Source of the DNA: Haliotis asinina
Lineage: Eukaryota; Mollusca; Gastropoda; Lepetellida; Haliotidae
NCBI RefSeq assembly: GCF_037392515.1
Contig: NC_090287.1
Coordinates: 9,717,501 to 9,781,500 of the forward strand
Length of the DNA: 64,000 nucleotides
Direction: 5' to 3'
Shown in pieces: positions 11,701 through 62,252 of this stretch. The stretch's first letter is position 1. Every line of letters begins with the position of its first letter. Position numbers and translations under genes: made by a program. A model generated the notes under the pieces. That model saw only the letters and a list, made by a program, of their open reading frames with translations. It ran no database searches and was not told where the DNA came from.

Positions 11701-14700
11701 ACATCACACAAATCGACTGGTGTCTGCATAATCCCCCAATGTAGCCTGTCACCAGATTTGAACATATTAAATACTGCAGTTCATGAGATAATGCGATAAC
11801 AAGAAACGGGACATACATACAGACACTGAATACATAGTACCCCCTTCCGTACGACAGGGGACAAAAGTGAGGGTAAAGTAGTGATTCTTGTTATCATACT
11901 TACCATTTGTTTTTATCTTTGAGCTGAGGAGGTTTAAAGCCACTTTTGGACATCAAAAACAATGCCCTGGAATGAGAAGATGCAATTAAGTGATGTCAAG
12001 TTCAAACAGAAACTAACTGAAAAAATATAATCCTCCCAAACTTATCAGCTTCATCTATATAGATATAGATGCCTTGAAAATTATAAATATTTACACACAA
12101 AATGGAAAATAGCTCACTGTCAAAATAAGTTGGCAGAGACTTGGTTAAATATATTTATTGTGAGTTAATAATACTGGAATTAAAAAGGAATAGATACCTC
12201 ATGGGATGAAGATCAAACATGGGTGGCTGCAACTCAGCAAACTCTATGGCTGTGATGCCCACAGCCCAGATGTCACACTGCTGATTGTAGCCCCCTTTCC
12301 TCTCCACAGCAGCCACCTCGGGGGCCATCCTGAACACACACAACAGCAGAACATGTAAACATGTATGTGGCTGCATGCTGAGGTTGCGGGTGTGACTGTA
12401 TGTCCTCGTTTGATGCACATGTATGTGACCATGTGGCCTCGTTTGATGCATGTGTTTAACCGTATGTCTTTGTTAATTGATGCACATGTCCACGTTTGAT
12501 GCACATGTGATCAATGTCCTTGTTGGATACACCAATGACTGTATGTCCTTGTTGGATGAAAATGTGTGACCGTATGACCTTGTTGGATGTACTAGTGACC
12601 GTATGTCCTTGTTTAATGCACATGTGACTGTATGTCCTTGTTGGATGCACATGTGATCATATGTCCTTGTTTGATGCACATGTGACTGTATGTCCTTGTT
12701 TAATGCACATGTGACTGTATGTCCTTGTTGGATGCACATGTGACTGTATGTCCTTGTTTGATGCACATGTGACTATGTCCTTATTGGACGAACATTCGAC
12801 TATATTTCCTTATCAGATGCACATGTGACTGGATATCCTTGTTGGATGTACTTGTGACTGTATGTCCTTGTTGTTTCACATGTAGCAGCATGTCCTTGTT
12901 GGGTTCACATGCCTCGTCTGGACTTTGTCATATTTACAATGCCAGCTCACTTTGTTACCAAGGATATTTTCATCATATCAATATTTCTCTGAGGCAAAAT
13001 TATTCATTACAAGAACTCTCTTCATTTTACACCGTATGTTAAATATGATACACTATATGGGAAGATTTCAGTAGAAATGCAGAGAGACGGAAATCAAAGC
13101 TTCTATTTTAACACTGGACTGATATTTGTCCAATGATAAATGATATTAATATTGATTCCACTTGCTGTGAAAACTCACCAGTAAGGTGTCCCAATGAAAG
13201 ATTTTCTTTTACACATAGTTGCAGTTATCTGGGCCGACACACCAAAGTCAGCTGAAACACAATGTCTTTCTGTTAATCCCTGTCATTATTTTCAGTAGAA
13301 TATAGTTCTACATCCACTCTAGACCGGTCTTAATCATGTGGGGATTTCAACTCAGAATAGATACTTAGTGAGTGAGTGAGTGAGTGAGTTTAGTTTTACG
13401 CCGCACTCAGCAATATTCTAGCCATATGGTGGCGGTCTGTAAATAATTGAGTCTGGACCAGACAATCCAGTGATCAACAACATGAGCATCGATCTGTGCA
13501 ATTGGGAGCCAATGACATGTGTCAACCACCTGATCCACCCAAGTCTGACCACCTGATCCTGTTAGTCGCCTCTTACGACAAGCATAGTCGCCTTTTATGA
13601 AAAGCATGGGTTGCTGAAGGCCTATTCTACCGCGGGACCTTCACAGGTCATACTTAGTAAGCTATGAATACTTTCAAAAGATGATTAAAGTGGACTCTCT
13701 GCGGTGGGGTGGGTTGCGGGGTGGGTGGGTCAGACTTTATTGTAGTGGACCAATGAATATGTATATGTAGCAGGGCATGGAGTCATCCCACTGATGACAT
13801 CCTTACCTTGTGAGCTTGCTCACAGGGTTAACCTCTTTGGTCATGTAGACATGATGATGATGACTTTGGATCAGAAGGTCAGTGGTTCAAATCAAAGTAT
13901 AGGACTCCATGGGTATTGATATAGCCACTGCTTTGCCTGGTCCAGACTCACAAATTCAGTGGCTGCTAGAAAACTGCTTGAATGCACAAAACCACAAACT
14001 CGCACAGATCTCCAGCTATGAAATATGGCTTTTAAAAACCCTTCACATATCTTGGCCAGGATTTGTCAGCACCAGATCTGTGCTCCAGTTTCTTTAAAGA
14101 GGTTGACAACAGATATTTAACATATTTTTGGCAATTCTGGTTTCCCTTTCCCAATAAGCTGACAGGCTATGATAGAACATAAATACAGCTCAAAACAGCA
14201 GTATTCCTAATTCACACTCTTGTGCAGGAACAAAGTGAGGGAACTTTCTGTAACACTTACCAAGTTTGACATCACCTTCATCTGTTAGTAAAATATTAGC
14301 ACCCTGAAAAACAGAGATATTTTAGTGGTATGCTACAATAGTCAGGATAATAACAAGAATGGTAACACTACATGTTGACAAACTATCTTTATTACCTGAT
14401 TCTTCAAGCTTTCACAGGTTCAATGATTCTAAATACCTTCCATGCAAGACATCCCAACACTATTAACACTACTAACCACGAGCCTGTTAACATGAGGTAC
14501 CATACGAATTCCTACAGTTTGCATTTCCAGTGGGTAACATAGAAAATGTTGCTCCTTATACGCGCAGAACATTGACTGACTCAGCCAATCAGAAAATGAC
14601 ATTTGTGTGTGAGGTAAGATAAACGATTTTAAGGAACTGTTCACAATTTATGGCAAGGAGGGTGATGATGATATTTATGGAGAAGAATGTATTATGTGAA

Positions 14701-23771: not shown

Positions 23772-25352
23772 CTACCCATCAAAAGTTTAGACTCACTTAA
23801 TACAATGTAGATATCTTGGAGGGAAAAGGCATATGTGTTATAAAATAATCGTTCCTTTATTTCTTTAGTCAGTGTATAATATCGGCGGTTATGATGACCC
23901 AGATTTAAACATTGAGCACTAAAGAGTACTACCCTCAAAACGTGAATGACAAAAAGTCAATATCGGGTGTGGCCACCCCTGGCTGCAACACAGGCATTGC
24001 ATCGACGTGACATACCACGCATCAACAGTCCAATCTGTCTCTGGGGAATGTTTCTCCACTCCTGCAACAACGCATTTCGAAGCTGGTCAAGGGTGGCAGG
24101 GGGAGGAACTCTGGTGTACACGCGACGTCCCAAAATATCCCATACATGCTCAATCGGGCTCATATCGGGGGATAGTGCCGGCCATTCCATGTGATTGACA
24201 CCATTCTGCTGCAAACAGGCTGTCACGATGCGAGCTCTGTATGGTCTGGCATTGTCGTCTTGAAAAGCAACACGTCCTGGCATGGCTCTAAGGAATGGAA
24301 TGACAACTGGAATGAGAATTTCATCTTGGTACCTCTGGCCGGTCAGATTACCACCCACCACCACTAAATCACTTCTGCCATTCATTGTGATCCCGCCCCA
24401 CACCATAACTGACCCTCCTCCAAAGAGATCATGTTCAACAACGTTAGCGTCAGCGAAACGTTCACCCTGACGTCTGTAAACGGGGATTCGACCATCCTTG
24501 AAGTGCAGGTTAAATCTTGATTCATCCGTGAACAGAACACGTGACCATCTGCGTGCATCCCATGGCAAATGCCCATTTGCCCAATTCAATCGATCCTGAC
24601 GGTAGCGTGGTGTAAGATGGGGTCTAACGGCTGGACGTCGCGCCCGCAGTCTATAGTCACGTAATCGGCGCCGTATTGTTGATACAGATACACAGTGTCC
24701 AGAAGCCTGTCTAAATTTACGCATTATTGACTGCAGTCTCGGTGACTAGTCTGCTCCTGAGAGCAATCAAACGAATGTACCTGTCATCCTGTTGTGACGT
24801 CACTTTTGACCTACCGGATCTTGGTCGATCCTTGTCCGAGTTTGTCTGCTGGAACCGTATCCATAGGTTGGAAATTGCCTTTTGGGATACACAAAGACGT
24901 CCGGCAACATATCGTTGTGATCTCCCATCTTGCAGGAGTGCTAAGGCTTGATGTCGTTGATCAATTGTTAAACTTCTTCCACGACCCATGGTCACTTCAA
25001 GGATAAATTTTGCCACTAACTCAAAGGAATCAACTGCAAACCTTATAAAGGTGAATTGCACGAGGATCATGCTGCAAATTGCCGAAGTGCACATGAAAAT
25101 TGCATGCATGTCAGCAGCTGCGTTTCGATGTGATGTTTTGTGAAAACTTTACCATTTTTCAAAAACGTTAATTCTGTATGGAACTCAAGATAGTGAGGGA
25201 AGCGGTGTTACGAATTTGCTTTACGTTACGTCAAGACCTGTGTAAACGATACACCTAAATAGTTCAGTATAATTTGACAATTTCAGTAGTGAAAATTTGG
25301 TCGAACAAATCTACTACAAATACACTAGTGAGTCTAATCATTTGATGGGTAG
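23772..25352 (-). mobile_element. Tc1-like transposon, almost whole
   Basis: Inverted termini CTACCCATCAAAAGTTTAGA at 23772 and CTACCCATCAAATGATTAGA (inverted) ending at 25352 are flanked by TA on both sides. The length, 1581 bp, is normal for the family. The transposase is on the minus strand between the ends. The internal parts of the termini differ slightly, so the copy is not brand new. Confidence 0.93.
23957..24989 (-). pseudogene. Tc1-like transposase (DD34E), one frameshift
   Basis: ATG at 24989 starts MGRGRSLTIDQRHQALALLQ and a paired-like helix-turn-helix ending SQQDDRYIRLIALRSRLVTE. At about 24720 the frame moves by one base and continues RKFRQASGHCVSVSTIRRRL. The catalytic residues are present: Asp in FTDESRFN, Asp in FQDDNARPYRA, Glu in SPIEHVWD, with the MVWGGI motif between. 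It ends at 23957. One shift separates it from a full-length frame, so it was active in the recent past or works only as a substrate. Confidence 0.9.
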
Positions 25353-32199: not shown

Positions 32200-35100
32200 G
32201 AAACAAATGGCAGACAATAAGTATTTTGTTGGCCAAGTTGCTGATTTGCTAGGAGGCAAGAAGATAAAATCAAACTCAGCGACTCCACCAAAAACAAAAC
32301 TTGAAGCTCTCTTTGATGTCAAGACAAAAGGAAAAACTGAACACAGAGAAAAGACTCGCACAGAAAAGAAGACCAAAAATGTTACAAAACCAAAAACAGT
32401 AAAAAATGAAATCAAGACAGAAAAAGATGTGAAGGCAGAAAAGGTAAATATCATGATTCCTCTATGAAGGTCCTGTAACATTCTTAAAGAGGGGCATTCT
32501 CTAAGTAAGGCATTCTCTTCCCACAAATATTACTTGTCATATCTTCCTTCAAACCTCTGTACTAATACGACCTTTCATGGTGCAATTGTTCAGGATTCGT
32601 GGTTGGTTGCAATCATATTTAGTTGTGCAACCAGCATTGTTGGTATACGTGATGATTTGTAAGGCCTTAGTAATATGGGAAAACTAGAAAACCTTACCAC
32701 AGCTCGATACACAAATGTTTTTTCTAGACATAACTCAGTCATGGCTGGGTCAATAGCATCACCATAACCGTCTTGGACAACGGTCATGCTAGCCATTAGA
32801 TTCTCGTGTGTCACATCAACACAAATCCACGGTGGAGGAGGAATATTTGTGGCCCCAGATTTGCTTCTGTTAGACAAGTTGGATCTAAGTCGATGTAACG
32901 CACATTCTGATTGGATAGAAAGAACAGAGATAATTTGTGCCACAATTCTATGTTTGTCTGTTGAAGTCACAGGTTTGTGAAGATTTTTATTCTGTGTCAC
33001 CACCACCATGCCCATGCTAGTGGATTTACCAAAGTTTTAAATGTCCCAAGACCAGCAGGTTTTTTTTAATGCATTGACAAAACTGTTCAAAGTGCACGAA
33101 GATGTACTCTTTCTCAGTTATAACAGTGAATTAAAGGTGGACGTAAAGGTGGTGGGCTACTCAACACTGATCACTGTGAAGATAATGATCATTAACATTG
33201 TGTCTTCATCATTATAACCTCAACTGGTTGGATCTTTTAATGTGAAAGGGTGTACCTTTGCCATTTGATAGTCAGCATGTCCAAACAGCGGAGACAAGGT
33301 CACTGTTTGACATTTCAGTGTCAAGAAATTGTCAGCAGTGTCCCAGCTTTCTCTAAACAAGAAGCTAAAGATGGTATAATAATAGTGATAGCGAAAGTGA
33401 ATCAGATTGTGAAAGTAAGTGACGTCTGTATTTAGTAGTCCAAACTAAGGGGCATGTGACTGTATAAACCATTAAACATAAAATGATTGCTTTTCAGAAG
33501 TGTTGTTTTCCGGAACATAATTATATCCGTTTCGCACAGACGCAACAGCAGCAACATTCTCTGCTCCCCTCTTCAGTGAAGTTAACTCGACCAGCCGTTT
33601 GTGCCATTTGACCTCCCTGTAGAGTAGATTTGACCTCCCTGGTCCTGTATACATTGAGTTGATTTGACCTCCCTGGTCCTGCATACGTAGACTAGATTTG
33701 ACCTCCATGGTCCTGCATATGGAGAGTTGATTTGACCTCCCTGGTCCTGCATACGTAGACTAGATTTGACCTCCATGGTCCTGCATATGTAGAGTAGATT
33801 TGACCTCCCTGGTCCTGCATACATAGAGTAGATTTGACCTCCCTGGTCCTGCATATGGAGAGTAGATTTGACCTCCCTGGTCTTGCATATGGAGAGTAGA
33901 TTTGACCTCCCTGGTCCTGCATATGGAGAGTAGATTTGACCTCCCTGGTCTTGCATATGTAGAGTAGATTTGACCTCCCTGGTCCTGCATATGTAGAGTA
34001 GATTTGAGATCCCTGGTCCTGCATATGTCGAGTAGATTTGACCTCCCTGGTCCTGCATATGCCGAGTAGCTCAGATCAAGATGACGAGGCTATAAGCTTT
34101 TGGGAATCATCGTAATGTTTATATGAAGCCGTTTATTGAGGATCAGAAAGGTTATGTGATTTAACTGTTCCTGTGTCGGGGTACCACAGAGGTATGCTGA
34201 GTGCTTTTTGTTTCCCCTCCACCCCCACTCACTCTTTCACTCACTCACTTTGTCCAGGTCATTCTGTTACAAGGCATGGTCAGAAAATGTTTGGTTTAAA
34301 GAATACATTAAAATCATATCTTATCCCTTAATTTCAGAAGACAGGCCCAGCTTCTGAAGATCAGAAGCCCAAGGAAGCATTAGAGAAGAAGAAAAAGAAG
34401 AAGAAAGAAAAGAAGGCAAAAGAAGAGGGATTCTGTCCTCCCAAGGGAATTGTTCATGAATCTTTGAAGGAAAGTTCAGAGAAAGAAAAACTACAGTTAG
34501 TATCAATTTGGTATCTTTTTGTCAATTCAATGGCTGTGAATCATTTTGAAAGAGAAGAAATTTGGATTTATTTCTATGAATACATGATGTGAAGGTTTCT
34601 TGTCCAAAAACATTTTAGATATCTATTACAATGATTAATATTAACCTTCATTTCTTTTTAAGAGTTTCACAAGAGAAAGCATACGAGTGAGTGAGTGAGT
34701 TTAGTTTTACGCCGCACTCAGCAATATTCCAGCTATATGGCGGCGGTCTGTAAATAATCGAGTCTGGACCAGACAATCCAGTGATCAACATCATGAGCAT
34801 CGATCTGCGCAATTGGGAACCGATGACATGTGTCAACCAAGTCAGCGAGCCTGACCACCCGATCCCGTTAGTCGCCTCTTACGACAAGCATAGTCGCCTT
34901 TTATGGCAAGCATGGGTTGCTGAAGGCCTATTCTACCCCGGGACCTTCACGGGTCAGAAAGCATACGAATGACAACCATTCCTGCTTCACGTTTGGTGTT
35001 GATGCTATGGAAGCATCAGAAGTTGTGGGTTATTCTTATTCTCCATTCCTCTGATCTTGGTTCTTCCATGTCATTGCAGAAAACCAAAGAAGAGGAAGAA

Positions 35101-45689: not shown

Positions 45690-46390
45690 GATTAATTTCC
45701 AGGTGTATACAACGGTCAAGAATGATGTGACATCTGTATATACAGTGGTCAAGAATGATGTGATATCTGTATGCACAGTGGTCAAGAATGATGTAGCATC
45801 TGTATACACAATGGTCCAGAATGATGTGACATCTGTATTTAGAGTGATCAATCAGCATGTCACATCTTTATATACAGCTATCAAGAAGCATTTAACATCC
45901 ATATATGCAGTGATCAAGTAGCATGTAGCATCCGTATATACAGTGACCACGAACAATCATCAAGAAGCATGTAACATCTGTATATACATTGATCAAGTAG
46001 TATGTAATATCCATACTAAACAATGATTAAGCAGCATGTAACATCCGAATATACAGTAATCAAGAAGAACGTAACATCCGTAAATACGATGGTCAAGAAG
46101 CATGTAACATCCGCATATACCATGGTCTAGAAGTTTGTAACATCCGTATATACCATGGTGAAAAAGCATGTAACATCTGTGTATACCCTGGTAAAGAAGC
46201 ATGTAACATTCTTTATATACAATGATTAAGCAGCATGTAACATCCGTATATACAATGATTAAGCAGCATGTAACATCCGTATATACAATGATTAAGCAGC
46301 ATGTAACATCCGTATATACAATGATTAAGCAGCATGTAACATCCGTATATACAATGATTAAGCAGCATGTAACATCCGTTTATAGTGCCT
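45690..46390 (+). repeat. 33-bp minisatellite
   Basis: The unit is GATTAAGCAGCATGTAACAT CCGTATATACAAT; the rightmost five copies are almost identical and the left ones diverge. Period 33 is eleven codons, so both strands show long open frames (KQHVTSVYTMI / MLLNHCIYGCY) without coding meaning. Confidence 0.95.
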
Positions 46391-47458: not shown

Positions 47459-48921
47459 CTGAGTCAAAAAAGAAACTTCACATTCTTTCTTCAGGGCACA
47501 ACAAAAGAACAAGAGATGGTAAGATGTTAAATTGTTTTATTTCATTGCTGAGATCCGTGTGATGTACTCGATATACTGACAGTGCCACAATCAGTTCCAT
47601 TAGGCTACACCGCCGTTCTAAAACATGGGTATACAGAATGTCAAGTCACAAGAATAAGAATTCGAAATTTCTCTGTTCAGTATTGTGTATGTCCACCCCA
47701 CGCATTCACCACTGACCAAACACCGTCTCCTCATCGACTGTCTGATGCTTGTGAACACGTGGTTGGAGATTCTGCACCATTGCTCTTGCAAGGCAGCGCC
47801 AAGTTCCTGCAAATTCAGAGTTTGGTTCCTAAGACCACGAAGCCTTCTCCCAAGTGCATCCCAAGCGTGCTCTATTGGATTAAGGTCAGGGGACCTCGAT
47901 GGTAAGTCCGTGACGTTGATTCCAGCGCTTTGAAGGACATTTCTTGTCAACATCACGGTGTGCGGCCGAGTATTATCTTGCTGGAACTGTAGACCTGGGC
48001 CATGAGCCGCCATGAAATGAATGAGTTCAGGGGTGAGCACCTGGTCGCGGTAAGCAGCAGCTCTGAGGTTTCCACGGATGACCAAAAGTCGGGAACGGTT
48101 GTTCCCACGGAAAGCACCCCACACCATGCAACTTCCGCCCCCGAATCTGTCGACCTCTGTACACAGTATTGGGCATACCGTTCACGACGTCGTTTCCAGA
48201 CTCTATGCCTGCCGTCCGCGAATCTGAGGGTAAACCTGAGACAACGCGATTCCAGTCTCTCTGGGTCTATCGGGGGTGACGTTGGGCCCACAGCAGAACA
48301 TGACTTTGATGAAACGGCGTCAATATTGGCCCACGATATGGACGGCGAGAATAGAGATTGGCAGCCCGCAACCGATTTCGAATGGTCTGTGAGGACAGTC
48401 AACCTCTAAACATCTCAGCCCTGGTACGTGCAGCCGGCAGAAATCTGTCACGTAGGTGACGTAGGATGATTTGACGGTCTTCTGCTCGTGACGTCACACG
48501 TGAACGACCCGACTATGGGCGATCAGAAGTGGTGCCGACTTCGCAAGTCATACACAGTACGACGGTTCATCCCATTTCTCTTGCGACGTCAATAACTGAT
48601 CTTCCCGCAAACATGCCAACGGCACCTTTAACATTGCACATTTCACAATCGTGGTATTCAAAGTACCGTTAGAACTGTAGTTTAAAAGTGTTTCTTTTTC
48701 AAACTTCGATGCGAAGATCACGTGATCGACTACACGTGCAAAACCTGATTTGGCACGAACGTCATTTGCACGACGAATGGATGGGTTTGAGTGGGTTTTG
48801 CTAACGTTATTCTAGAGTCGAAAGACAGGGATCCCATTTCGGATACAGAGATGTATGATCAGAGAAAAATTATTCATTATTTTTAAAAATTACATTTTGT
48901 GGAGTTTCTTTTTTGACTCAG
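47459..48921 (-). mobile_element. Tc1-like transposon with intact ends, broken transposase
   Basis: Termini CTGAGTCAAAAAAGAAACT at 47459 and its exact complement ending at 48921, each next to TA, give a 1463-bp element. The minus strand has MVWGAFRGNNRSRLLVIRGN, FQQDNTRPHTVML (second catalytic Asp) and SPDLNPIEHAWD (Glu) in one frame (47618-48127). The N-terminal half (48130-48600) is in shifted frames. It is a further family, distinct from the 23772 and 27050 elements. Confidence 0.9.
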
Positions 48922-55095: not shown

Positions 55096-55204
55096 ATGAA
55101 AGAGGGCATCATGGCGTCCAACGTAACAGACAACGTCGACTTCTACAGGGGACCGCTCAGCCATCGTGCCTACTTTGTCATGGGCATGTATATGACCATA
55201 TTAG
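55096..55204 (+). CDS. Opsin exon 1
   Basis: Two in-frame ATGs, 55096 and 55111; a pyrimidine-rich acceptor (cgttttcag) just before, at 55089, suggests an upstream untranslated exon. It encodes MASNVTDNVDFYRGPLSHRA and YFVMGMYMTIL. Donor TTAG|gtaaca. Confidence 0.8.
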
Positions 55205-58200: not shown

Positions 58201-61200
58201 CATATGTGTAACTCATACCATATCTAATGATATTTATCCAAGTAAGTCACAAACTGTGTTGTCGACTGTCGATATGTAAACACTTATATCTATGGCTTAA
58301 TCAACCACATCCCAATAATGTTCTTATTTTCCTGGTGAAATTGTGATGTACAGAAAGAAAGCTGTAATCTTCTAATAACATTTATGTGAAGTTTCATGTT
58401 CATGCCTTAAAAGGGCTTATTCTTTTTTCAAACCTAGAAATGATATTTGCAAACAAAAGTGATTGTTACAGAGAGAAATATATGGAGGTTGTCCTAGACT
58501 AAACCTGGGGCCCAGAATATATATATACATAGTTTAATACACTTAAAGTGATGCCATCTTCGTGTATGTTAATTAGCATCTCCTTCATTTACTGTCGTTG
58601 CCACACTTGCTGATGACGAAGATCAAGTTTAAATTAATGTTTCTCAAAAATGATGATGATGAGGACGATGACGATGACGATGGTGACGATGACGATGACG
58701 ATGACGATGACGACGACGACGATGATGATGACGATGATGATGATGATGATGATGATGATGATATACATATTTCAGGTTTTGCAGCTTATATAGGAAATGG
58801 ACTGATTCTTTTCCTGTTCTTTAAAAACAAGCTTTTCCGTCAAGCTCATATCAACCTTTTCATCGTCAATATCGTTGTTTGCAACATCGGGGAGTCTCTG
58901 TTGGGTTTCCCGTTCGGCGTTGCTTCACATTTCTCATATAGGTAGGTGTGACATATACACTGCTTCACATTTCTCACACGCCACACATACGTAGGTCTTA
59001 ATAAAGCATGTGCACTGCTTCACATTTCTCATATATTGGCCAAAAATAGTAAAGGATATTTGTAAAGTTTGAAATCATGAATTATATTGTATATTCATTG
59101 ACATATTGATACAATATCAGTCACACGAATACCAATATCCCTAACTTTATTTGTCCAGTATATATGTAGATCTGAGTGCAGCATGTACACAGCTTCACAT
59201 TTTTCATACAAATATGTAGGTCTTACTGTAACAGGCACACTGCTTCACATTTCCCATAAAGGTAGGTCTGAATTTATAGTATGTACACTGCTTCACATTT
59301 CTCATAAAGGTAGGTCTGACTTTATAGTATGTACACTGCTTCACATTTCTCATATAGGTAGGTCTGACTTTATAGTATGTACACTGCTTCACATTTCTCA
59401 TAAAGGTAGGTCTGACTTTATAGTATGTACACTGCTTCACATTTCTCATATAGGTAGGTCTGACTTTATAGTATGTACACTGCTTCACATTTCTCATATA
59501 GGTAGGTCTGACTTTATAGTATGTACACTGCTTCACATTTCTCATATAGGTAGGTCTGAATTTATAGTATGTACACTGCTTCACATTTCTCATATAGGTA
59601 GGTCTGACTTTATAGTATGTACACTGCTTCACATTTCTCATATAGGTAGGTCTGACTTTATAGTATGTACACTGCTTCACATTTCTCATATAGGTAGGTC
59701 TGACTTTATAGTATGTACACTGCTTCACATTTCTCATATAGGTAGGTCTGACTTTATAGTATGTACACTGCTTCACATTTCTCATATAGGTAGGTCTGAC
59801 TTTATAGTATGTACACTGCTTCACATTTCTCATAAAGGTAGGTCTGACTTTATAGTATGTACACTGCTTTACATTTCTCATATAGGTAGGTCTGACTTTA
59901 TAGTATGTACACTGCTTCACATTTCTCATATAGGTAGGTCTGACTTTATAGTATGTACACTGCTTCACATTTCTCATAAAGGTAGGTCTGACTTTATAGT
60001 ATGTACACTGCTTCACATTTCTCATAAAGGTAGGTCTGAATTTATAGTATGTACACTGCTTCACATTTCTCATATAGGTAGGTCTGACTTTATAGTATGT
60101 ACACTGCTTCACATTTCTCATAAAGGTAGGTCTGACTTTATAGTATGTACACTGCTTCACATTTCTCATACAAATATGTAGGTCTTACTGGAACATGTAC
60201 CCTGCTTCACATTTGTCATGTAGGTAGATCTCACTTTAGACCGTACACGGCTTTACATTTGTCATGTAGGTAGATCTCACTTTAGACCGTACACGGCTTT
60301 ACATTTGTCATGTAGGTAGATCTCACTTTAGACCGTACACGGCTTTACATTTGTCATGTAGGTAGATCTCACTTTAGACCGTACACGGCTTTACATGTCA
60401 TGTAGGTAGATCTCACGTTAGACTTTTACTGGGTAGGCATGATAATAGCATGCACAACGCTACACGTGGTAATTCGACTCGTTCGCAGATGGATATTTGG
60501 CGACATTGGCTGCAGATTCTACGGCTTCGTCTGCTTTGCCTGCTGTCTGTCCAGCATGTGTACCTACGTTGCCATCAGTGTCTACCGCTACATCGCAATC
60601 TGCCAACCAGCGCTTCGTGAGTAAAGCTGTACTTGTACACACAATATGAATAACGACTTCTATCACGTTTCGGGGCGGTGGAATAGCCAAGTGGTTAAAG
60701 CTTTCGCTCGTCACGCCCCAAACCCGGGTTCGTTTCCCCAAATGTATGATGCCCGTGTCTGATGTCACCTGCCTTGATATTGCTGAAAGCTGCGTAAAAC
60801 TAAACTCACTCACTCACCATACGTTGTTTGGCATGAACATATGTTTGGCAAGACGTGTCCGTTCATTTTGTTAACAACATGACCAAATGATTATATTTTA
60901 TAGCACCAAGACTCAAGTAAAGCTGTATAACTGTTTCAGTCGGACGACTTCTGAAAGGCAACCGGATACCCTTTGTGTTGGTTGTGATCTGGGCGTATTC
61001 ACTCTTCTGGGCAGTCAGTCCTTTTTTCGGTTGGGGAAAATACGCACCAGAACCTTTCAAGACTACATGTAGTCTTGCCTGGACCGATCGCAGCCTTTCG
61101 TCAGTCACCTTCATCATCAGCGTCCTAATCTTCATCCTCGCCATCCCAGTGACCGTTATGATGGCAGCCTACATCAGGATCCTGCACGTAACCCGCTCAC

Positions 61201-62252
61201 AGGTGTCGGGGGGTGCTCTGCCTCAGGAAATGGTACAACTGCCCACTGGCCATGCCAAACATGGCGTACACTGCATCCGGGACATTGAATCGCGGACCAC
61301 CACGGTAAGACTACATATACAACTGCTCTTCGGATTTACGTACCGAGGGCGTTCTATTCTTGTCAAGCGGACATAGCCAGATGTAATTTATATGTGTTCA
61401 AAGTGGTGTTGTTCACTACAGTATTGCTCTTTAAACCATAACTATGAAGAAATAGGTATTGATGGTTTTCCATCATCTGTGTCCAACATTTTATTTTGAT
61501 TTTATTTGGAAAATAAACAGGGGGTTACATTTGAACCTTCTTTGTCAGAATTACCCCCATCCACCTGTGACAATTGTCCCGTGCTAGGGGTCCGTTGCAA
61601 CACTTGCAGTCATTGCATTTAACACGTAATAACTTTGTAACGACAGTGAACCTCAAATTACACTGAATTGTAAAGCCTTTGACAATTCACATATTAGAAA
61701 GCAAAATTAAATTTCCTAACACCCGCTTCTTTAACTGATGGGTCAGGACTAGATGTGTCCAGTAAGCTGCTGTTTGACCAGTCTTAAGACTGGTCATATT
61801 CTCTACGTTGCGCAACCCCAATTGTGCTACAGTTTGCCTGTGGCTTAAGAAAGTGGGTATCAGATCTTGTTGCTCATAGACATCCAATTAGCTTTGAGAT
61901 GGCATGAACCTTGTGTAACCTTTTCATTTAGCTGAACCAGGACATGTTATACATGAAATAACAATCAAATGTATGTATCTTGTTTCAGATTGTCTTCGTT
62001 ACTGTCGCATTGTACGTGATTGCCTGGGCTCCATATGCTATCATGTCCTTCTTGTCTGTGTGCGGGATTCGAATCCCGGTCGAGGCGACCCCCATTCCAA
62101 CCATGTTTGCCAAGTCCAACTGCGCTTACAACCCTATCATCTATTTCGTGTCTCACCGTCGATTCCGTACATCGTTGATGGAGCTGTTCGGAATTTCGCC
62201 CTCCTTTGATGCACCTGTAGCCAAGGAGACCAACTCAGTCCAAAAAACGTAG
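55096..62252 (+). CDS. Tetraopsin (Opn5/peropsin-like), five coding exons
   Basis: Exons 55111-55204 (or start at ATG 55096), 58776-58941, 60489-60616, 60940-61304, 61989-62252. All phases agree, giving 338 residues from the second ATG. It is a seven-helix receptor: NVT glycosylation site at 4-6, helix-1 Asn39 (GNG), Cys95-Cys173 disulfide pair, WAPY in helix 6 (264-267), retinal Schiff-base Lys293 in FAKSNCAYNPIIY, and NPIIY 299-303. Glu167 in APEPFKTTC falls at the place of rhodopsin Glu181, the ancestral counterion, while Tyr98 takes the place of Glu113. The YAPEPF.T.C block is close to Opn5, and the helix-5 region recalls peropsin, so I assign the tetraopsin group and leave the exact class open. 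Oddities: YRY (119-121) for D/ERY, and Asn68 for the helix-2 Asp. Likely a membrane photopigment or retinal isomerase. Confidence 0.92.
55384..55590 (+). repeat. (GA)n-rich purine tract in opsin intron 1
   Basis: About 200 bases almost purely of A and G, GAGAGAGAGAGAGAGAGAAA and variants with GACAGA and GGGAGG, on the sense strand. Confidence 0.9.
56540..56672 (+). repeat. Remnant of the ~270-bp SINE-like repeat
   Basis: AAAAGGCGATCGGGATCG, GACTGGCTGACTTAGTTATT, GCAGATCGATGCTTTTTCTG and TTATTTGCAGACTGCCCTCA are recognisable. Confidence 0.55.
56956..57061 (+). repeat. 33-bp tandem repeat, three copies
   Basis: CTGGTCTAAACAGGTGGTCT AATGAGGTGATTT is repeated three times with one or two changes. 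Confidence 0.92.
58650..58762 (+). repeat. (GAT/GAC)n microsatellite before opsin exon 2
   Basis: About 37 GAY triplets in a row, ending 13 bases before the acceptor AG of exon 2. In one frame they give a poly-Asp run. Confidence 0.95.
58776..58941 (+). CDS. Opsin exon 2 (helices 1-2)
   Basis: Acceptor tacatatttcag|GTTTT directly after a (GAY)n microsatellite; donor ATATAG|gtaggt. It encodes GFAAYIGNGLILFLFFKN through GFPFGVASHFSY. Its last 20 or so bases and donor recur as the unit of the following array. Confidence 0.92.
58919..59212 (+). repeat. Seed copies of the exon-2-border repeat
   Basis: TGCTTCACATTTCTCATATA G ends exon 2, and TGCTTCACATTTCTCA recurs at 58961 and 59016. A diverged copy at about 59190 (AGCTTCACATTTTTCATACA) begins the dense array. 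Spacing here is irregular, with single-copy sequence at 59035-59170. Confidence 0.85.
59190..60185 (+). repeat. 48-bp minisatellite made of exon 2 end plus splice donor
   Basis: The unit is TGCTTCACATTTCTCATATA GGTAGGTCTGACTTTATAGT ATGTACAC, in about 19 nearly identical copies, some with CATAAAGG in place of CATATAGG. The first 21 bases equal the end of opsin exon 2 and the next ones its donor. Period 48 is 16 codons, so both strands have long open frames (332 and 321 codons) that are not genes. Read in the exon 2 frame, the intron stops at once (TAT AGG TAG). Confidence 0.97.
60186..60425 (+). repeat. 46-bp sister array
   Basis: The unit is CTTTACATTTGTCATGTAGG TAGATCTCACTTTAGACCGT ACACGG, four to five near-identical copies. 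It aligns with the 48-bp unit but has its own fixed differences, so it spread separately. Confidence 0.93.
60489..60616 (+). CDS. Opsin exon 3 (helix 3)
   Basis: Acceptor ctcgttcgcag|ATGGA, donor CTTC|gtgagt. It encodes WIFGDIGCRFYGFVCFACCL and SSMCTYVAISVYRYIAICQP, with YRY in place of DRY. Confidence 0.93.
60672..60818 (+). repeat. tRNA-derived SINE, well preserved
   Basis: GGGGCGGTGGAATAGCCAAG TGG (A-box) and CCCGGGTTCGTTTCC (B-box) form the tRNA-like head. The body ends GATATTGCTGAAAGCTGCGT AAAACTAAACTCACTCACTC. It lies in opsin intron 3, sense orientation. Confidence 0.88.
60940..61304 (+). CDS. Opsin exon 4 (helices 4-5, third cytoplasmic loop)
   Basis: Acceptor ctgtttcag|TCGGA, donor CACG|gtaaga. 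It encodes GRLLKGNRIPFVLVVIWAYS, FFGWGKYAPEPFKTTCSLAW and the helix-5 segment SSVTFIISVLIFILAIPVTV, then a long loop. Confidence 0.95.
61989..62252 (+). CDS. Opsin exon 5 (helices 6-7, retinal lysine, stop)
   Basis: Acceptor ttgtttcag|ATTGT. It encodes IVFVTVALYVIAWAPYAIMS, PTMFAKSNCAYNPIIYFVSH and a short cytoplasmic tail ending SVQKT, stop TAG at 62250. Confidence 0.95.
   Translation: MVFVTVALYVIAWAPYAIMSFLSVCGIRIPVEATPIPTMFAKSNCAYNPIIYFVSHRRFRTSLMELFGISPSFDAPVAKETNSVQKT

Follow-up and report, generated by a model that had tools for sequence, protein, structure and literature searches.

Tandem repeats of exon-intron borders, termed mirages, are described in amphioxus at Adh3, the globin genes BflGb6 and BflGb9, TnC and PGBD5 (PMC3087553, PMC3902484). 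The available text of these papers reports that such genes are spliced regularly despite AG/GT signals in many of the repeats, and proposes that mirages create introns, which should then contain the repeats (PMC3087553, PMC3902484). According to excerpts of the respective reports, several donors of a minisatellite are in use at the human gene IFI6 (6-16/G1P3; PMC4526556), and introns have been gained through tandem duplication of AGGT segments in ATP2A1, in fission yeast (24-bp repeats) and in potato RdRp, gained introns with a traceable source sequence being few (PMC4974935). The locus analysed here lies in 64,000 nucleotides of Haliotis asinina DNA (NC_090287.1, positions 9,717,501 to 9,781,500 of the forward strand; contig C8 of the 1.14 Gb genome searched), referred to as the window. 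It carries an opsin gene whose second intron consists to about 90% of repeat units that were most likely seeded from the gene's own exon 2/intron 2 border. We consider the locus to be a mirage with a near-neutral array and use of the first donor, with a probability of roughly 0.7.

Repeat units in intron 2 of the opsin gene

The opsin gene has five predicted exons that encode 338 amino acids without an internal stop codon; matches of exons 2–5 include Pfam 7tm_1 (8.9e-43) and squid rhodopsin (2.3e-39). Exon 1 was chosen among three scan candidates because its hydrophobic end continues in frame into the first transmembrane segment (TM1) in exon 2; further in-frame ATGs lie at 55096 and 54979. 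Coordinates below are window positions, and a slash within a sequence marks the splice border.

55111–55204, + strand: predicted exon 1, from MASNVTDN, with donor TAG/GTAACA in phase 1
58776–58941, + strand: predicted exon 2, homologous to squid rhodopsin, ending TCATATAG/GTAGGT (donor G at 58942)
58942–60488, + strand: intron 2, 1,547 bp, of which 1,391 bp are putatively border-derived units
60489–60616, + strand: predicted exon 3, with acceptor TTCGCAG/ATGG
60940–61304, + strand: predicted exon 4
61989–62252, + strand: predicted exon 5 with the stop codon

Tandem Repeats Finder reports a repeat at 59183–60376 with a period of 48, 24.9 copies and 93% matches. The 27-mer TGCTTCACATTTCTCATATAGGTAGGT, composed of 21 exonic bases (TGCTTCACATTTCTCATATAG) and the six bases that start intron 2 (GTAGGT), is present in 12 copies across the window, of which one lies at the exon (58921) and the other 11 belong to the array; tandem repeats thus span an exon-intron boundary here, with 27 bases kept exactly in 11 units. 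The initial annotation had proposed that a 48-bp unit beginning at this border is repeated about 19 times and followed by a 46-bp sister array, and both the count of 19 and the sister array, with five units of ~46 bp, are borne out. Together with four diverged units these make 28 units besides the founder, arranged as follows.

58921–58960, + strand: founder copy, 40 bp, with 21 exon and 19 intron bases
58961–59015, + strand: diverged unit 2, 55 bp, with no AG ahead of GTAGGT
59016–59190, + strand: diverged unit 3, ~44 bp of unit split by a miniature inverted-repeat transposable element (MITE)
59034–59160, no strand assigned: the MITE, 127 bp, with a TA target duplication at 59032–59033 and 59161–59162
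59191–59240, + strand: 50-bp (B-type) unit, GTAGGT retained with no AG ahead
59241–60152, + strand: main array, 19 units of 48 bp, all with AG/GTAGGT
60153–60202, + strand: second 50-bp (B-type) unit
60203–60425, + strand: sister array, five ~46-bp units, the final one shortened, with TAG/GTAGAT
60430–60465, + strand: probable decayed unit towards the 3′ end of intron 2, scoring 8.1 bits with nhmmer (E 1.6e-4, 91 bp searched)

The bulk of the remainder of the intron is the 127-bp MITE within one unit, and ~23 bases lie between the decayed unit and the acceptor. A claim that nearly every unit offers the same donor holds for all 19 of the 48-bp units, which contain GTAGGT with one common variant in front of it: 12 read ATAG/GTAGGT (11 of these exact over the 27-mer) and 7 read AAAG/GTAGGT. 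Counting the founder, GTAGRT is present in all 29 units. The decayed unit was also compared pairwise. Shuffles did as well in 8/500 cases with the 48-bp unit, in 21/500 with unit 2 and in 481/500 with a 46-bp unit; since the 48-bp unit and the remainder of exon 2 also reached 14/500, these pairwise values alone are weak.

Because 48 is 3 x 16, long open frames run across the array on both strands (332 amino acids at 59183–60181, + strand; 321 amino acids at 59204–60169, − strand), both outside the frame of exon 2. Other minisatellites with units of 29–34 bp lie at 33618–34069, 45706–46384 and 12486–12911; the window is rich in such repeats, and an array within an intron is therefore not rare by itself. 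A GATGAC-type microsatellite (58650–58762) adjoins the exon 2 acceptor with 13 bases between repeat and exon, and a stretch of intron 3 (60675–60810) has by eye the look of a tRNA-derived short interspersed element (SINE).

Origin and age of the array

The array is confined to this locus. As a query against the genome it gives two matches, both at this locus, and no further copies were found in that DNA search, which skips very common words. The 22-base border, allowing up to two mismatches, has 22 matches genome-wide, of which 20 are at this locus and the remaining two carry two mismatches each; the backward control of the same sequence has none. An artificial repeat number or placement through assembly error is hardly credible: a 48-bp unit repeated 19 times is open to miscounting, but the contig is 67 Mb long, the array is unique, its variant units are ordered and a MITE is nested within it.

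The resemblance between border and downstream sequence is likewise particular to exon 2. When 20 distinct donor borders were each compared with their own downstream sequence, the opsin exon 2 border scored 22/22 and the other 19 at most 14/22, in a small set made up of four borders of this gene and 16 putative ones from opsin or G-protein-coupled receptor (GPCR) loci. The latter derive from 41 forward high-scoring segment pairs, of which 23 lack a donor-like end and one has too short a flank, leaving 17 entries that represent 16 distinct borders. The exon-like part of the unit aligns without gaps and in register with squid rhodopsin (GFPLMTISCFLKKWIFG versus GFPFGVASHFSYRWIFG) and with the paralogs. 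Because it aligns as ordinary opsin sequence, the exon most likely predates the array, and this homology together with the exact 27-mers agrees with the proposal of the initial annotation that the exon 2/intron 2 border most likely seeded the repeats.

The order of events can be read tentatively from the units themselves. The sequence shows tandem duplication of a segment that joins 21 bases from the end of exon 2 to the opening ~20–27 bases of intron 2. The copies would then have diverged into several types, with the MITE inserted in one of them. To judge from the divergence, a single 48-bp type would later have expanded into 19 near-identical copies, flanked by two older 50-bp units. The MITE has terminal inverted repeats of the TATACTGGACAAA type, its ends being set by eye on the alignment. 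Of 1,749 first-look candidates, 40 places in the genome, this copy among them, were scored; the copy here differs from a 5-copy consensus at 16 of 130 sites. Given this divergence of a MITE nested in unit 3, the founding units are probably not new. The expansion of the 48-bp units looks young, their near-identity suggesting recent turnover. Two reading frames elsewhere in the window (23957–24724 and 47618–48127, − strand) appear by eye to be remnants of Tc1/mariner-type transposases.

Intron 2 occupies a position at which no intron is seen in the related genes compared, which are the best of the 121 matches of a genome search plus two more. That search shows no close opsin paralog, the best identity outside the locus being 48% over a short stretch. 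In the tree set of 21 genes, 19 (five of them other GPCRs) span the position, at residues 55/56, within one exon and two do not reach it; none of the 19 has an intron there, and four more GPCR loci not entered in the tree (L023, L025, L027 and L030) lack it as well. Seven opsin-like paralogs (L014–L019 and L026) have a single exon in place of exons 2 and 3, flanked at matching outer positions by cag/g and a donor-like site, borders judged by eye and checked for phase only in L014. An opsin relative at locus L061 (C1:85196000-85201999) and the r-opsin-like L006 have an intron 20 nt downstream of the intron 2 position, in phase 1 and thus in a different phase from intron 2, an offset that corresponds to a 'near intron pair' in the sense given in the accessible part of PMC2891723. 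Intron 2 has been either gained in this lineage or lost in others and, on this pattern, may be lineage-specific.

These comparisons bear on the idea that intron 2 itself was born from duplication of the border, by tandem-duplication or mirage intron gain. It is compatible with a mirage whose first donor is used, and we entertain it tentatively, as doubtful rather than implausible. In its favour are the empty position in the 19 spanning genes and the four further loci, the outer borders shared by the seven paralogs, the ~90% of the intron that consists of units, and the prediction, in the portion of the amphioxus globin paper available, that mirage-born introns contain mirage repeats (PMC3087553). 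Against it, the two ends expected under the Rogers model are not both in evidence: the exon 2 side is clear, but the start of exon 3 and the 3′ end of the intron are not recognisable. Shuffled sequences matched as well in 75/500 trials for the unit and in 106/500 for the 5′ end of intron 2, each compared with the start of exon 3, which leaves a derivation of the unit from exon 3 unproven. For the 3′ end of intron 2 against the end of exon 2 the figure was 370/500, and a copy of the exon 2 end at that place was rejected. The opsin tree does not place the gene firmly (FastTree groups it with C1_85 at 0.64, IQ-TREE gives 42 for another grouping), and an old intron lost elsewhere also fits.

The seven opsin-like paralogs are, at a guess, Go-opsins, of which the highest numbers, 8–10, are reported for the Vetigastropoda, abalone among them (PMC10733189). 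The genome also has six matches to Egg_lysin (PF01303), a family typical of abalone, with none in 14 control genomes, those named being prokaryotes; the paralogs and these matches fit an abalone. A published minisatellite of Pacific abalone, allowing 2 mismatches, gives one forward and one reverse hit, compared with 0 and 1 in the control, and carries no information on the genus. On another contig, seven protein-kinase matches with equal or near-equal scores form a tandem cluster at C5:13406869-13423781, spaced 2.5–3 kb apart.

Splice signals and the choice of donor

Intron 2 contains 34 copies of GTAGRT, 25 of which are preceded by AG, including the true donor; as in the amphioxus mirages, AG/GT signals thus lie within the repeats. 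It has 25 GTs with at least 7 of 9 pairs to U1, or 24 (15.5 per kb) without the true donor, compared with 69 (1.11 per kb) over the remainder of the window and none in introns 3 and 4. Strong decoy donors are therefore ~14 times denser here than elsewhere in the window. Such a field of U1-binding decoys, or alternatively an enhancer-like DNA tract, could tune or lower opsin output, with the retention of GTAGRT in every unit as a further hint; this is very unlikely, as most units are near-identical and conservation is consequently uninformative.

The first donor stands out from the copies. Scored against the sequence that we take to be that of U1, the true donor forms a duplex of −12.1 kcal/mol, the best copy −10.3, and the donors of the 48-bp units −10.2 or −10.3, a difference that we put down to a private base at +7 in the true donor. 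Being attached to a real exon and predicted to pair most strongly, this donor is the one that the spliceosome would most likely take; the 24 downstream dual AG/GT sites would be passed over or would at most provide harmless recursive steps. We take near-neutrality of the array as the default, because the true donor pairs best with U1 and because splicing is normal in the amphioxus genes that carry such repeats.

The consequences of a slip are set by the frame. Use of any of the 24 downstream dual-site donors would make the first wholly intronic codon a stop, as the initial annotation had anticipated, and all 24 retained pieces start with GT and end with AG, so that a second splice would give back the exact mRNA. 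The predicted lengths of these pieces are 320 + 48n up to 1184, and then 1282–1464. Use of a downstream donor is thus expected on logical grounds either to expose the transcript to nonsense-mediated decay or to leave a GT-AG-bounded piece. In 19 of the 24 cases a recursive step recreates the same 27-base border. Any AG/GT repeat has this repair property, however, and it is no proof of use.

The 48-bp units had also been likened to recursive (zero-length exon) splice sites, and this stands in part. All 19 combine a pyrimidine tract with AG/GTAGGT, and the pyrimidine content upstream of the AG is 0.71, compared with 0.59–0.65 in the 46-bp units and 0.53–0.65 at the four acceptors of the gene. 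A branch-like CTGAC motif lies 38 nt upstream of the AG in 15 of the 19 units; another AG, at 30 nt, intervenes between motif and site.

The repeats might be functional in splicing, as a ladder of dual sites for stepwise removal of the intron or repair of errors, and we regard this as unlikely. Recursive splice sites are typical of long introns, and intron 2 is short (1.5 kb). The acceptor half has been lost from all four diverged units and from the decayed one, where no AG precedes the donor, the intervening AG separates CTGAC from the site, and the repair property is the logical outcome of any AG/GT repeat. For such a ladder speak the 25 AG/GTAGRT sites (true donor included), the GT…AG pieces and restored 27-nt borders, the pyrimidine content above that of the gene's own acceptors, and the fact that no parts of the unit are better kept than GTAGGT and its first 16 exon-derived bases. 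Dual sites are used in the tandem repeats of human UBC, as stated in the accessible text of PMC10809524. The fuller proposal that intron 2 is lineage-specific, born from and built of its own border, and removed at least in part by stepwise or self-correcting splicing through the 24 dual sites, with the repeats buffering errors, is less likely still.

Several observations weigh against a border-seeded, near-neutral array with use of the first donor. The array donors (−10.2 or −10.3 kcal/mol, 7 of 9 pairs) are stronger than the gene's own donors at exon 3 (−7.4, 5 pairs) and exon 4 (−8.2, 6 pairs), and RNA folding does not hide them, being no better than in shuffles (z 1.22 and −0.22). The match to the founder is imperfect downstream, where the exon copy has a private gap of 6–8 bp and the private +7 base. 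Between unit types, the difference per site is 0.093 over the first 16 exon-derived bases and GTAGGT, against 0.308 over the distal part (column permutation, 27/5000). This comparison used seven representatives and left out the exon copy and the linker; two pairs among the seven are closely related, so that they are not independent. That linker, which contains the last five exon bases, varies at 0.323 per site with the exon copy included, like the distal part. Simple neutral decay does not predict a well-kept 5′ part and GTAGGT. The types may have been seeded from a constrained border on separate occasions, or these parts may have been selected within the array; the variable linker fits neither well.

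The same folding values led us to reject the idea that donors are hidden by RNA structure. The border piece itself folds with z −1.57 (14/200 shuffles as good), and the window contains no match to a known RNA family at gathering scores.

Comparison with known border repeats

An exon-border minisatellite is a known, rarely reported kind of element, and the opsin locus adds a case. It is unusual in its copy number, in an intron made up almost entirely of units and in the absence of such an intron from paralogs. Those last two features, the MITE in unit 3 and the prior art go beyond the initial annotation. Within the open-licence literature, no mollusc border minisatellite is among the matches listed (titles and starts of abstracts), and no paper was found that combines 'mollusc' and 'recursive splicing'. 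A TSSK1-like gene of Pacific abalone has an intronic minisatellite whose copy number varies between individuals, with no link to an exon border in the portion of text available (PMC6905558). The copy number of the opsin array may well vary in the same way, which would supply natural alleles to compare. With a border-repeat intron at a position unseen in paralogs, the prediction that mirages become introns may hold here, and the locus is a natural assay of spliceosome choice, with one donor among two dozen near-identical ones within 1.5 kb.

Among the vertebrate, yeast and plant cases, the resemblance to ATP2A1, fission yeast and potato RdRp, as these are summarised in the available text, is that a duplicated border or AGGT segment has turned intronic; in contrast to them, the start of exon 3 is not recognisable in the opsin unit. 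At IFI6, two downstream repeats serve as donors and give rise to isoforms, whereas the downstream donors of the opsin gene would lead to an immediate stop. The UBC array resembles it as a tandem AGGT array able to act as 5′ or 3′ site (PMC10809524, in the part consulted), but the UBC repeats are coding, and those of the opsin gene lie in an intron and run into stops when read in the frame of exon 2. The amphioxus mirages share with the opsin locus the tandem repetition of an exon-intron border together with its AG/GT signals. They differ in scale and scope: in the text at hand, BflGb6 has up to 6 copies of 150–160 bp and the Adh3 units are 10–72 bp, whereas the mollusc opsin array repeats the 5′ border only, in 28 copies of ~46–55 bp.
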